This document shows positions 5,008 to 24,411 of a DNA stretch of 64,000 bases, piece after piece. The stretch is from assembly GCF_002024165.1 (NCBI RefSeq), contig NZ_MWQN01000001.1:6448001-6512000 (forward strand), in the 5' to 3' direction. A program made the position numbers and the translations under genes. The notes below the pieces were generated by a model. It saw nothing but the letters and a program-made list of their open reading frames with translations, was not told where the DNA came from and ran no database searches. Source of the stretch: Embleya scabrispora (lineage in GTDB: Bacteria > Actinomycetota > Actinomycetes > Streptomycetales > Streptomycetaceae). Every line of letters begins with the position of its first letter. The stretch's first letter is position 1.

Positions 5008-5928
5008 GTCCTCAAACGCCGGACGGGCTTCTTTGGTCCGGTTCGGCCCCGGGGCCGGGCTGGGCCTTGTCCTCAAACGCCGGACGGGCTGGGGTTGGGT
5101 CCGGTTCGGCTTCGCGGCCGGTTGCGCCCTGTCCTGTCCTCGAGCGCCGGATGGGCTGGGGTTGGGTCCGATTCGGCTTCGCGGCCGGGCTGCGCCCCGC
5201 CTTGTCCTCAAGCGCCGGACGGGCTGATTGGGGACTCGGCTTTGGGGGGCGGGGTGCGTTCCTGCTTGTCCTCAAGCGCCGGACAGGCTGGGGTTGGGCC
5301 CGGTTCGGCTCCGGGGCCGGGCTGCGCCCCGCCTTGTCCTCAAGCGCCGGACGGGCTGATTGGGGACTCGGCTTTGGGGGGCGGGGTGCGTTCCTGCTTG
5401 TCCTCAAGCGCCGGACAGGCTGGGGTTGGGCCCGGTTCGGCTTCGGGGCCGGGCTGCGCCCCGCCTTGTCCTCAAGCGCCGGACGGGCTGATTGGGGACT
5501 CGGCTTTGGGGTGCGGGGTGCGTTCCTGCTTGTCCTCAAGCGCCGGACAGGCTGGGGTTGGGTCCGGTTCGGCTTCGGGGCCGGGCTGCGCCCCGCCTTG
5601 TCCTCAAGCGCCGGACGGGCTGATTGGGGACTCGGCTTTGGGGGGCGGGGTGCGTTCCTGCTTGTCCTGAAGCGCCGGACAGGCTGATTAGGGACTCCGC
5701 CTTGGGGGTCCGGCTGCGCTCCTGCCTGTCCTCAAGCGCCCGACGGGCTGATTGGGGGCGGGGTGCGTTCCTGCTTGTCCTCGAGCGCCGGATGGGCTGG
5801 GTTGGGCCCGGGTCGGCTTCGGGGCCGGGCTGTGCCCTGCCTTGTCCTTGAGCGCCGGACGGGCTGATTAGGGGCTCGGCTTGGGGGTTGGGCTGTGCTT
5901 CTGCTTGTTTTTGAGTGGTGGGTGGGCT
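5008..5928 (+). repeat. Array of 15 dispersed-repeat copies, including a 132-bp higher-order tandem
   Basis: Fifteen same-orientation copies of a 23-bp element with core TCAAGCGCCGGACGGGCTG start at 5008, 5069, 5136, 5204, 5268, 5336, 5400, 5468, 5532, 5600, 5664, 5728, 5777, 5844 and 5906 (the last is degenerate). From 5204 to about 5731 they form a 132-bp higher-order unit, just over three times, in which GGACGGGCTG and GGACAGGCTG versions alternate 68 and 64 bp apart. Spacers carry a small hairpin, GGGC-TGC-GCCC, before many copies. Because 132 is a multiple of three, several frames stay open, but the translations are pure repeats and I do not call a gene. The array lies between two convergent gene ends. 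Confidence 0.95.
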
Positions 5929-20935: not shown

Positions 20936-21412
20936 ATGGGGCAGAACGTGGGTATCGGCACGGCGGACGTATCCGACGCCGAGCAGATTCTCAAGCTTCA
21001 GTACCTCTGTTACCAGGGCGAGGCCGCCCTCTACAACGACTACGGCATCGAGCCGCTGACGCAGAGCCTGGAGAGCCTGCGCGCCGAGTTCGAGACGCAC
21101 ACCGTGCTGGTGGCGCGCCTGGGCGAGGAGGTCGTCGGCTCGGTGCGCGGCACCATCGACGACGGCGTGGCCCGGATCGGCAAGCTGATCGTGCACCCCC
21201 GACTGCAGCGGCACATGCTCGGCACCCGGTTGCTGCGCGCGATCGAGGCGAAACTCGCCGACGCGGCGGAGTACGAACTGTTCACCGGTCACCGCAGCGA
21301 GAACAACCTGCGGCTGTACGAACGCCTCGGCTACGTCTCCGGCCGGATCGAGAAGGTCAGCCCCCGGCTGAGCCTGGTCTACCTGCGCAAGACCGCCGTC
21401 CTCGCGGCCTGA
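20936..21412 (+). CDS. GNAT family N-acetyltransferase
   Basis: A 158-residue acetyl-CoA-dependent acetyltransferase of the GNAT fold. Motif A (acetyl-CoA binding) is RIGKLIVHPRLQRHMLGTRLL, with the glutamine/arginine-rich turn, and motif B contains ENNLRLYERLGYVS. The N-terminal segment SDAEQILKLQYLCYQGEAALYNDY is a block I recognise from Streptomyces relatives. The acceptor amine is unknown. The start is decided by AGGGGAGC eight bases upstream. It is a single gene with its own terminator downstream. Confidence 0.9.
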   Translation: MGQNVGIGTADVSDAEQILKLQYLCYQGEAALYNDYGIEPLTQSLESLRAEFETHTVLVARLGEEVVGSVRGTIDDGVARIGKLIVHPRLQRHMLGTRLLRAIEAKLADAAEYELFTGHRSENNLRLYERLGYVSGRIEKVSPRLSLVYLRKTAVLAA

Positions 21413-21453
21413 TCGACGCCTGCGGCATCGACGCCTGCGGGCCGGGCACCCCA

Positions 21454-21492
21454 AAGCCCCGGCGACCTTGGAATCCATGGTCGCCGGGGCTT
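21454..21492 (+). terminator. Terminator hairpin after the GNAT gene
   Basis: Perfect 14-bp stem AAGCCCCGGCGACC and its complement, 11-nt loop, 41 bases after the stop codon. It isolates the acetyltransferase from the met leader just downstream. Confidence 0.85.
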
Positions 21493-21553
21493 CGTCGGCT
21501 CCGGTCGCAGGTGCTTCGGCGGATGACATTTCCATTGCGAGGCGTGTGTCTGC

Positions 21554-21565
21554 TTTAATCGGATC
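21554..21565 (+). promoter_or_regulatory. -10 element of a leaderless promoter for the met leader ORF
   Basis: TTTAAT (21554-21559) is one mismatch from TATAAT and stands out in this GC-rich DNA. Six bases separate it from the ATG at 21566, so transcription should start at or next to that ATG. No convincing -35 at standard spacing was seen; an ATGACA at 21523-21528 is too far upstream. Confidence 0.6.
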
Positions 21566-21664
21566 ATGTTCACGACGGCTCACATCTCCGGCACCGCGGC
21601 TACCGCCACGGGTTGTCGCTGCATGTGCCGTTCGTGTCAGATGTGTCGAATGTGTGGCTGTTGA
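21566..21664 (+). CDS. Leaderless Cys/Met-rich leader peptide upstream of metNIQ
   Basis: A 32-codon ORF whose second half reads CRCMCRSCQMCRMCGC: seven Cys and three Met among the last 16 residues, while the first half is an ordinary Thr/Ala-rich stretch. All Cys codons are TGT or TGC. It has no ribosome site but starts one helix turn after a -10 box, as expected for a leaderless mRNA. In mycobacteria, leaderless poly-Cys small ORFs are known to act as cysteine-responsive attenuators of downstream sulfur genes. Here the target would be the methionine importer 140 bp downstream. The added Met codons are notable. A function as a free peptide (metal binding) is a weaker alternative. Confidence 0.72.
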   Translation: MFTTAHISGTAATATGCRCMCRSCQMCRMCGC

Positions 21665-21743
21665 GGATTTGAGGGCCTGATCCCTCTCCCGGGCCGAGCG
21701 CTCCGCGCCCCCGGTGTCACCCCCGCCACGCCCCCTGTGTGAT

Positions 21744-21776
21744 CGAGTCGCGCGGCCCTTTGTCGGGCCCGATTCG
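21744..21776 (+). promoter_or_regulatory. Stem-loop between the met leader ORF and metN
   Basis: A 12-bp stem with one G-T pair and a 3-nt bulge: CGAGTCG plus GGCCC pairing with GGGCC plus CGATTCG, 6-nt loop. It lies 80 bases after the leader stop codon and 16 bases before the metN ribosome site (GAGGA, 21793-21797). It could be an attenuator terminator or anti-sequester switched by ribosome position on the leader ORF. That role is inference. Confidence 0.45.
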
Positions 21777-21804
21777 GCACGCACATCCACCCGAGGAATT
21801 CACG

Positions 21805-22878
21805 GTGATCCGTACCACTGCCCTGAGCAAGGTCTATCGCAGCCGAGAACGGCAGGTGACCGCGCTCGACGGGGTCGACCTGCACGTGCGCGAAGGCGAG
21901 ATCTTCGGTGTGCTCGGCCGCAGCGGCGCCGGCAAGAGCACCCTGATCCGCTGCGTCAACCGCCTGGAGCGCCCCACGTCGGGCACCGTCGAGGTGGGCG
22001 GGCGCGAGTTGACCTCGCTGTCCGCGAGCGCGCTGCGCGCCGAGCGGCGCGGCATCGGGATGATCTTCCAGCACTTCAACCTCCTCTCCAGCCGCACCGT
22101 CGCCGGGAACGTCGCGGTACCGCTGGAGATCGCCGGGGTGCCGCGCCGGGACCGGGCCCGCCGGGTCGCCGAACTACTCGACCTGGTCGGCCTCGCCGAG
22201 CACGCCAAGGCGTACCCCGCGCAGCTGTCCGGCGGCCAGAAGCAGCGGGTGGGCATCGCCCGCGCGCTGGCCGCCGAACCGCGCGTACTGCTGTCCGACG
22301 AGGCCACCTCGGCGCTCGACCCGGAGACCACCCGCTCGATCCTGGCCCTGCTGCGCGACCTGCGCGACCGACTCGGCCTGACGATCCTGCTGATCACCCA
22401 CGAGATGGACGTGGTCAAGAACATCTGCGACTCGGCCGCGCTGATGGAAGGCGGCCGAATCGTCGAGTCGGGCACGGTGCCCGAGCTGCTCGGCCGCTCC
22501 GACTCGCGGCTGGCCCGGGAGATGTTCCCGCTGGGTACGCCCGCCGTGCTCGCGGGCCGCACGCTGGTCGACATCACCTTCCGGGGCGAGGAGACGGCGC
22601 AGCCGTTCATCTCCACCCTCGCGCGCACCTACAACGTGGACGTCAACGTCCTGGGCGCGGCCGTGGAGAGCGTCGGCGGCCGGCAGATCGGCCGGATGCG
22701 GATCTCGCTCGACGGCACCTTCGAGCACAACGTGGTGCCGATCGGCTACCTGCGCGAGCAGGGCCTCCAGGTCGACGTGATCGACGAGGCCGAAGCCGAG
22801 TCGGGGACCGGCCACACCACATCGGACGCCGACGTCGCCGCCGCCGACGGCGGGGCGCTCGCGGGCAAGGAGCTCTGA
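21805..22878 (+). CDS. metN: Methionine ABC importer, ATP-binding subunit
   Basis: ATPase of the methionine-uptake importer. Walker A GRSGAGKS (residues 38-45), signature LSGGQ (141-145), Walker B and catalytic Glu in LLSDEATSALDPET, H-loop in LLITHEMDVVKNICD. The C-terminal 100 residues form the NIL/ACT-like domain that senses cytoplasmic methionine and inhibits transport. 357 residues from the GTG chosen, which has GAGGA seven bases upstream; an in-frame upstream extension to 21739 lacks a ribosome site. First gene of metNIQ; two bases separate it from metI. Confidence 0.95.
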   Translation: MIRTTALSKVYRSRERQVTALDGVDLHVREGEIFGVLGRSGAGKSTLIRCVNRLERPTSGTVEVGGRELTSLSASALRAERRGIGMIFQHFNLLSSRTVAGNVAVPLEIAGVPRRDRARRVAELLDLVGLAEHAKAYPAQLSGGQKQRVGIARALAAEPRVLLSDEATSALDPETTRSILALLRDLRDRLGLTILLITHEMDVVKNICDSAALMEGGRIVESGTVPELLGRSDSRLAREMFPLGTPAVLAGRTLVDITFRGEETAQPFISTLARTYNVDVNVLGAAVESVGGRQIGRMRISLDGTFEHNVVPIGYLREQGLQVDVIDEAEAESGTGHTTSDADVAAADGGALAGKEL

Positions 22879-22880
22879 CG

Positions 22881-23537
22881 ATGACCTGGTCCGAGATGCG
22901 GCCACTGCTGGAGACGGCCACGCAGGAGACGTTGTACATGGTCGGCGTCGCGACGCTGATCACCGTACTGATCGGCCTGCCCATCGGGCTGCTGCTCGTG
23001 CTCACCGACCGCGGCGGGCCGTTGTCCTTCGCGCCGGCGAACAAGCTGCTCGGCCTGGTGGTCAACGTGGGGCGGTCGATCCCGTTCCTGATCCTGCTCG
23101 TCGCGCTGATCCCGTTCACCCGCTGGGTGACCGGGACCACCATCGGCACCGACGCCGCGATCGTGCCGCTGACCGTGGGCGCCATCCCGTTCTTCGCGCG
23201 CCTGGTGGAGACCGCGGTGCGCGAGGTGGACCGGGGCCTGATCGAGGCCGCCCAGTCGATGGGCGCGGGCACGTTCACCGTCGTGCGCAAGGTGCTCGTG
23301 CGCGAGGCGGTGCCGTCGATCATCTCGGCGATCACCGTGACCGTCGTCGCGATCGTCGGCTACTCCGCGATGGCGGGTGTGGTCGGCGGCGGCGGGCTCG
23401 GCGACCTGGCCATCCGCTACGGCTACCAACGCTTCGAGACGAACCTGATGCTCGTCACCATCGCGGTGCTCGTCGTCCTGGTTCAACTCGTGCAATTCCT
23501 CGGCGATCTGCTCTCCCGCAGGCTCGCCCACCGCTAG
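22881..23537 (+). CDS. metI: Methionine ABC importer, permease subunit
   Basis: A 218-residue inner-membrane permease with five predicted helices. The N-terminus ETLYMVGVATLITVLIGLPIG is typical of MetI, and the coupling-helix EAA loop is EAAQSMGAGTFTVVRKVLV. The C-terminal GLGDLAIRYGYQRFETNLM block is strongly conserved in the family. ATG three bases after the metN stop. It works with MetN in the membrane to import D/L-methionine delivered by MetQ. Confidence 0.96.
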   Translation: MTWSEMRPLLETATQETLYMVGVATLITVLIGLPIGLLLVLTDRGGPLSFAPANKLLGLVVNVGRSIPFLILLVALIPFTRWVTGTTIGTDAAIVPLTVGAIPFFARLVETAVREVDRGLIEAAQSMGAGTFTVVRKVLVREAVPSIISAITVTVVAIVGYSAMAGVVGGGGLGDLAIRYGYQRFETNLMLVTIAVLVVLVQLVQFLGDLLSRRLAHR

Positions 23538-23589: not shown

Positions 23590-24411
23590 GTGCGTATCGA
23601 CAAGTTCGTCGCCATCTCCGCCGTCGCCGCCCTCGGACTCGGTCTCGCCGCCTGCGGCAGCGACGACAAGAAGGGCTCGTCCGCCTCCGACCCGCTCAAG
23701 GTCGCCGCATCCGCCGTCCCGCACGCGCAGATCCTGAAGTACATCAAGGACAACCTCGCCGCGAAGGAGGGCCTGAAGCTGGAGATCAAGGAGTTCTCGG
23801 ACTACACCCAGCAGAATCCGGCCCTGGACGAGGGCGCGGTCGACGCCAACTTCTTCCAGCACAAGCCGTATCTGGCGGAGTACAACAAGGAGAAGGGCAA
23901 GAGCCTGACCCCGGTGGTGCCGGTGCACCTGGAGCCGCTCGCGCTCTACTCCAAGAACGTCAAGTCGCTCGCCGAGCTGAAGGACGGCGCGACCATCGCG
24001 TTCCCGAACGACGCCACCAACGGCGGTCGTGCGCTCAAGCTGCTCGCCGACAACGGTGTGATCAAGCTCAAGGACGGCGCGACCACCACGGCGACCGAGA
24101 AGGACATCGCCGACAACCCGAAGAAGCTCAAGTTCAAGGCGATCGAGGCGGCGCAGCTGCCCCGCGCGCTGGACGACGTGGACGGCGCGGTGATCAACGG
24201 CAACTACGCGCTGGACGCGGGGCTGACCCCGGGCAAGAACGGCATCGCGGTGGAGAAGGCCGACAACAACCCCTACGCGAACGTCCTGGTGGTCAAGAAG
24301 GGCAAGGACACCGACCCGCGCGTCCAGAAGCTGGCGAAGCTGCTGAACTCGCCCGAGGTGAAGAAGTACATCGCCGACGAGTACAAGGGCAACGTGCTCG
24401 CCGCGTTCTGA
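23590..24411 (+). CDS. metQ: Methionine-binding lipoprotein of the MetNIQ importer
   Basis: A 273-residue NlpA/MetQ-type substrate-binding lipoprotein. The signal peptide ends in the lipobox LAAC with Cys22 as the lipid-anchored residue. Mature domain landmarks: VPHAQILKYIKDNLAAKEGLKLEI-like start, DYTQQNPALDEGAVDANFFQHKPYL, AIPND-type strand (IAFPNDATNGGRAL) and INGNYALDAGL. GTG start with AGGAAAGGC a few bases upstream. Held on the outer face of the membrane, it hands methionine to MetI. A hairpin terminator follows 48 bases after the stop. Confidence 0.96.
   Translation: MRIDKFVAISAVAALGLGLAACGSDDKKGSSASDPLKVAASAVPHAQILKYIKDNLAAKEGLKLEIKEFSDYTQQNPALDEGAVDANFFQHKPYLAEYNKEKGKSLTPVVPVHLEPLALYSKNVKSLAELKDGATIAFPNDATNGGRALKLLADNGVIKLKDGATTTATEKDIADNPKKLKFKAIEAAQLPRALDDVDGAVINGNYALDAGLTPGKNGIAVEKADNNPYANVLVVKKGKDTDPRVQKLAKLLNSPEVKKYIADEYKGNVLAAF

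Follow-up and report, generated by a model that had tools for sequence, protein, structure and literature searches.

The short ORF that precedes the metNIQ operon in the Embleya scabrispora window (the whole 64,000-nucleotide stretch of DNA analysed here) is likely an ortholog of Streptomyces lividans metL that couples expression of this methionine importer to the translation of a sulfur-rich codon block. Comparison of metN loci from related genomes revealed homologous leader ORFs upstream of metN, with the same spacing between a -10 element and the ATG, in 110 of the 111 loci belonging to the window's order, the Streptomycetales, confirming that the window ORF is more than a chance reading frame. 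The most conserved part of these leaders is the nucleotide block TGT CGA ATG TGY near the stop codon, and not the number of Cys residues. It is very likely that the ORF is an attenuator-type leader before a methionine importer, as a preliminary description of the sequence had proposed; it is conserved across the order, and its S. lividans ortholog has been reported to be leaderless.

The coordinates of the locus are collected in Table 1. The TTTAAT hexamer, the ATG six bases beyond it, the 32-codon ORF and the absence of a ribosome-binding site, all claimed in the preliminary description, were each found in the sequence: the hexamer occupies 21554-21559, the ATG starts at 21566, and there is no room for a Shine-Dalgarno sequence if the leader transcript begins at that ATG. 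The ORF encodes MFTTAHISGTAATATGCRCMCRSCQMCRMCGC, whose C-terminal end is CRCMCRSCQMCRMCGC, and stops at the TGA at 21662-21664, two codons after the end of the conserved block. Seven residues of the peptide are Cys, and none of them is adjacent to another. Strictly speaking, the peptide is therefore not a poly-Cys one. No NCBIfam match was obtained for the window peptide and four others, and no Pfam match for the window peptide. The leader stop is separated from metN by 140 nt. A bulged 12-bp stem-loop followed by the methionine importer had also been claimed, and both are present, the stem at 21744-21776 and the importer as family-supported MetN, MetI and MetQ; MetN and MetQ score below the curated NCBIfam cut-offs and MetI above, and the Pfam domains score above theirs. 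A GNAT-type gene lies 5' of the leader at about 20936-21412, and on its 3' side is a perfect 13-bp hairpin at 21455-21491 (AGCCCCGGCGACC / GGTCGCCGGGGCT) without a T-run, a possible terminator of that gene. Elsewhere in the window, at 5235-5586, three tRNA-like ARAGORN matches of unknown type have starts 132 bases apart and may represent a repeated element instead of tRNAs.

Table 1. Features of the metNIQ leader locus, with positions counted along the window.
Feature	Position	Strand	Basis
Extended -10, TGC-TTTAAT, six bases 5' of the leader ATG	21551..21559	+	sequence; family alignment
Leader ORF, 32 codons plus stop, ortholog of S. lividans metL	21566..21664	+	homologs; published ortholog
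Conserved block TGT CGA ATG TGT (Cys-Arg-Met-Cys)	21644..21655	+	leaders of the order and of family f38
Untranslated spacer, C 51 > G 37, possible Rho-loading region	21665..21785	+	base composition
Bulged 12-bp stem-loop 5' of the metN RBS	21744..21776	+	segment fold; two same-genus homologs; alignment
ATTCGGCAC	21772..21780	+	pairs with leader GTGTCGAAT (21643-21651), 9 bp, one G.U
metN Shine-Dalgarno GAGGAA	21793..21798	+	sequence
metN, GTG start, ABC ATPase with NIL domain	21805..22878	+	ORF list; protein families
metI, permease	22881..23537	+	NF008049 score above cut-off
metQ, substrate-binding lipoprotein, GTG start	23590..24411	+	Lipoprotein_9, 2.7e-93

The loci were obtained as metN homologs of related genomes, whose upstream DNA was read, giving 123 distinct loci of which 111 are in the same order as the window. 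The family sample was part of 217 genomes with MetN, and a named-genome search returned 80 loci, two of which (both Streptomyces) were used; three duplicates were removed. This comparative search for ORFs before metNIQ in Streptomycetales, which had been suggested in the preliminary description, found the leader in all but one of the 111 loci. The tail rule RM[CR] selected 107 of the 110 leaders and a -10 rule the other three, and the conservation of the block Met, as well as that of the -10 in those three leaders, is partly due to these rules. A -10-like hexamer is situated 6-7 nt 5' of the ATG in all 110 leaders (TTTACT in 86, TTAACT in nine, TTTAAT in seven, TATAGT in six and TTAGCT in two), counted with a set of hexamers that was drawn up after the sequences were seen. 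An extended -10 of the form TCTGnTTTAmT is kept across the window's family in alignment A1, and five rows of that alignment, from the other sampled family of the order, deviate from it (CCTATAGT; L034, L035, L037 and L135 are among them). In the one exception, L129, the tail RMCRMCA is still present but a -10-like hexamer with an ATG close by is missing; either decay or an assembly error may account for this. The leader was absent from the 12 metN loci outside the order, among which L209, with 49 nt of upstream DNA, was too short for a judgement. Three loci outside the order (L201, L202 and L206) carry ORFs in frame that are rich in Met and Cys but lack the -10, and metN of family f19 (L201, L206 and L207) is preceded by a different conserved small ORF, ending LRRLSHLPFHPGTR or similar, which is possibly another leader type. 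A search of the window's own genome with a model of the promoter plus leader gave one strong match (4.8e-17); a further copy was rejected, the next match (0.007) being taken as noise.

The leader block is conserved in the order, positioned near the stop codon and constrained at the nucleotide level. CGA ATG is present at the block in 106 of the 110 leaders, with a Cys codon ahead of the Arg codon in 92. ATG follows the block Arg codon in all 110, a count partly demanded by the selection rule, and is itself followed by a Cys codon in 98 leaders and by the Arg codon CGC in the other 12. Across the complete or partial metN ORFs of these loci, CGA accounts for just 63 of 2320 Arg codons (2.7%) and TGT for 2 of 165 Cys codons, as against 227 of 378 Cys codons in the leaders. 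This bias toward CGA and TGT therefore indicates selection on nucleotides or codons, and not on the peptide alone. Both sulfur amino acids are strongly over-represented in the 110 leaders, Cys making up 11.8% of the residues and non-initiator Met 9.3%. Tails rich in Cys and Met are able to bind soft metals, a property that would suit a small trans-acting protein, for instance a metal-binding one. That the ORF encodes such a protein, or is there by chance, is highly improbable. A chance ORF is ruled out because 110 of the 111 loci have a leader at a fixed promoter spacing, and a function of the peptide is opposed by the constraint being on nucleotides (TGT, CGA) and by the last Cys of the block being Arg in 12 of the 110 leaders.

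A very similar leader was identified in a second family, f38, which from its proteins we suspect to be Microbacteriaceae. When 148 genomes of the class were searched with the promoter-plus-leader model, there were two clear matches outside the order (4.3e-7 and 8.6e-7), both in f38. The weak class-wide matches are mostly noise because 116 of the 148 genomes match at E up to 0.05, and reading in context outside the order covered the f38 matches and not the others, the best of which were in G302 (3.4e-5) and G052 (8.1e-5). A pattern search within f38 gave matches, some of which are not leaders, in 33 of 60 genomes. Phylum-wide, a pattern demanding ATGA and CGAATG, which misses other forms including that of the window, matched 32 of 396 genomes, and leader-like matches, judged on the matched strings alone, were found in f1 and f38 only. 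The leader was present in 33 of the 34 f38 loci that were read (L252, L257, L258, L260, L261, L283 and L285-L311); the 34th, L284, matched the pattern and failed the length rule. These leaders mostly read ..GMMMPxxxVMCCRMCx, with Met-Met-Met in 26 of the 33, and all 33 contain TGY TGY CGA ATG TGY. They end in CCRMC with the same block and stand before a winged-helix-type regulator: an ORF of >150 codons with an RTVRG motif is downstream of each, and the one such protein that was scanned is a Trans_reg_C winged-helix protein, the others being recognised by the RTVRG motif only. In addition, the flanks of the ATG-ATG-ATG run can pair to form a hairpin, as seen in the 29 of the 33 leaders that are of equal length and were aligned. 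Its arms match better within a leader than between species (mean stem 6.6 versus 5.3 in 21 non-redundant rows), and 0 of 20000 permutations gave as good a match, in a comparison uncorrected for relatedness.

What is sensed, where the ribosome stalls, which way the operon responds and how it is repressed we infer as follows. Transcription would start at the leader ATG, as reported in S. lividans and as suggested here by the -10, whose spacing from the ATG in the window and the order fits a leaderless start, and a ribosome would then translate the leader. With Cys-tRNA and/or Met-tRNA in short supply, the ribosome would pause on TGT-CGA-ATG-TGT and the importer would be made. With a good supply, it would finish the leader and depart, and the bared leader RNA would repress the operon, most likely at the level of translation by pairing of the freed block with RNA adjoining the metN RBS. 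Cysteine is probably involved in the sensing, and the balance tips slightly toward an involvement of methionine as well; a dual sensing of both is plausible. A leader that reads methionine only, or cysteine only, with the other residue kept as a by-product of constraint on the block's nucleotides, is a real, if lesser, possibility. A methionine-only leader would suit its target, a methionine importer, the ATG that follows Arg in all of the order's leaders (in part a product of the selection rule) and the Met-Met-Met of most f38 leaders, and a cysteine-only one would suit the Cys codons that stand side by side and the precedent from mycobacteria. Against either, both Cys and Met are enriched in the leaders of the order and of f38 alike.

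That precedent consists of the polycysteine leaderless short ORFs of mycobacteria, which Canestrari et al. are said to have established in 2020 as cysteine-responsive attenuators; there, the leader RNA reportedly sequesters the downstream RBS unless a ribosome covers it. Leaderless Cys-rich ORFs were noted in mycobacteria by Shell et al. in 2015 (PMC4633059), and a paper citing Canestrari et al. describes the mycobacterial Cys leaders as translation attenuation (PMC13236596). They resemble the window ORF as Cys-rich ORFs ahead of a sulfur-metabolism operon, leaderless in the mycobacterial case. They differ in that the Cys of the window peptide alternates with Met and Arg and forms no run, and in that the target here is a methionine importer whose metN starts, across the loci, 96-359 nt from the leader stop. 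Cys leaders of cys operons and cbs were also predicted in Actinobacteria by Seliverstov et al. in 2005, with cases in Mycobacterium, P. acnes and B. longum (PMC1262725). According to the excerpted text of that study, those leaders share with ours the Cys codons near the stop, the lack of a conserved terminator and a suggested role of Rho, and a metNIQ leader is unmentioned there.

The metNIQ leader is of a kind already in print, since the 2021 reannotation of S. lividans TK24 lists metL (SLIV_29928, Table 4), MSTTSDRTPATEATTTPGARCMCRRMCAF, before metNIQ (PMC8079986). In the excerpts of that report, 5'-end RNA-seq gives metL a leaderless start, a typical Rho-independent terminator is lacking, and the authors regard metL as an attenuator, pointing to its multiple Met and Thr residues. 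It shares with the window ORF the operon, the place and a homologous Cys/Met tail. However, the excerpted text stresses Met and Thr and contains neither a cross-species comparison nor the codon block, and the window form, with its seven Cys (CRCMCRSCQMCRMCGC), differs from the metL described there. No other report of a metNIQ leader was recognised in searches of the open-licence literature. The same source describes SAM/S-box riboswitches and the metH/metK RNAs as controlling sulfur-amino-acid genes in Streptomyces (PMC8079986). The leader is comparable to these in the kind of genes it would control but not in the RNA, and a SAM riboswitch or other Rfam RNA was rejected, there being no match in the window (gathering threshold) or in eight related loci (E up to 0.5).

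A classical terminator/antiterminator attenuator was likewise rejected, as intrinsic-terminator-like sites numbered zero in 21000-22200. The stem-loop before metN is composed of 7+5 bp, its bulge being 3 nt and its loop 6 nt long; as it has no T-run and no intrinsic-terminator-like site was seen, its suggested role as the attenuator hairpin is unproven. It was foldable in two of the three same-genus relatives tested. In one of these sequences, L011, two pairs are changed on both sides (T-A to C-G and G.U to T-A), provided that a one-base insertion is set in the 3' arm. For the whole leader RNA of the window, the folding energy is in the range of dinucleotide shuffles (z -0.13).

Our tentative candidate for the main repressive step is a pairing between the block and the RNA around the RBS. 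The partner segment in the window, ATTCGGCAC, shares bases with the stem-loop's 3' arm. RNAalifold of four same-genus sequences paired it with the leader block, showing no covariation, and the single-sequence fold of the window prefers the local hairpin to this pairing. For 54 sequences, chosen from the 110 for having an RBS motif that contains CGACAG and a spacer no longer than 260 nt, RNAalifold paired TGTCGA of the leader with TCGACA next to the metN RBS with a probability of up to 0.84. In 55 of the 110 loci, a 6-nt complement of the block lies no more than 40 nt from the start codon, versus 2.6 expected from mononucleotide shuffles, an enrichment that stems from one clade (elsewhere 3 of 50 versus 1.35 expected). 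Windows further upstream are mildly enriched in complements (7 versus 3.3, 7 versus 2.2 and 5 versus 1.6), and no 7-nt block complement was found in the 110 loci. In f38, complements occur within 40 nt in nine of 33 loci (1.5 expected) and at 40-80 nt in 11 of 33 (1.2 expected); in six loci the complement is AAGGATTCGAC, inside the RBS itself. Masking the last 30 leader nucleotides in silico made the RBS no easier to open, with a mean change of +0.01 kcal/mol in the 110 loci, +0.22 kcal/mol in the 33 f38 loci and +1.2 kcal/mol, that is, harder, in the window. There was no sign of co-evolution between leader and RBS, as cross-pairing between clusters gave about equal duplex energy (permutation p 0.29, 32 clusters). 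Relative to mononucleotide shuffles, the duplex energies of leader tails with the downstream RNA showed nothing unusual (per-locus z about -2.4 to +1.6; mean z in f38 -0.46).

Alternatively, although this is rather doubtful, repression could occur by a tnaC-like, Rho-dependent attenuation, in which the beginning of the C-rich spacer is covered by a ribosome pausing close to the stop codon; once the ribosome departs, Rho would load on the spacer and end transcription before metN. Such a mechanism is consistent with the lack of intrinsic-terminator-like sites in 21000-22200, with the absence of a typical Rho-independent terminator from the excerpted S. lividans report (PMC8079986), and with the position of the block within a few codons of the leader stop. 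Rho was also suggested for the mycobacterial cys leaders by Seliverstov et al. in the excerpted text (PMC1262725). The spacer is 46% C and 29% G. C exceeds G in every spacer of the order (110 of 110, as compared with 74 of 110 controls) and in all 33 f38 spacers (first 120 nt after the stop) versus 24 of 33 controls, but the controls are upstream regions and not other 5' UTRs, in which an excess of C may be common. The excess in the window spacer is moderate, at the 84th percentile of the window's 121-nt segments on both strands, and a role of Rho leaves the conserved CGA and the near-RBS block complements unexplained. We rank the RBS pairing slightly ahead of Rho because the mycobacterial Cys leaders have been described as translation attenuation.

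The conserved CGA also raises the prospect that the block acts through this codon, which is rare and possibly slow, or as an RNA- or protein-binding motif, and hence reports the general state of translation. CGA is generally regarded as a slow codon in such genomes. The presence of CGA in 106 of 110 leaders as compared with 2.7% of Arg codons, and in 33 of 33 f38 leaders before another gene, would agree with this, and CGA is kept even in clades where block complements near the start codon occur no more often than expected by chance. It is nonetheless an unlikely explanation, as the enrichment of Met and Cys and the context of a methionine importer fit a sulfur signal better.

What is new here is the breadth of conservation of the leader, the CGA-centred block and the very similar leader before the f38 regulator. 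An annotation from a single species, that of S. lividans metL, thereby becomes a conserved and testable element with exact codons to mutate, and cysteine is raised as a candidate signal for methionine uptake. In addition, the recurrence of the block in f38 offers a handle on the role of an uncharacterised winged-helix-type regulator, and the conservation of the rare CGA codon sharpens the question of how such leaders stall ribosomes. The evidence is evenly poised on whether actinomycetes share a leader class marked by TGY-CGA-ATG-TGY close to the stop codon of an ORF that is promoter-proximal and presumably leaderless, one that precedes metNIQ in the order and a winged-helix regulator in f38, there mostly with a Met-Met-Met hairpin. 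If so, one codon block would read the supply of sulfur amino acids both for their uptake and for a transcription factor, and the rare CGA codon would be a fixed part of the stall site.
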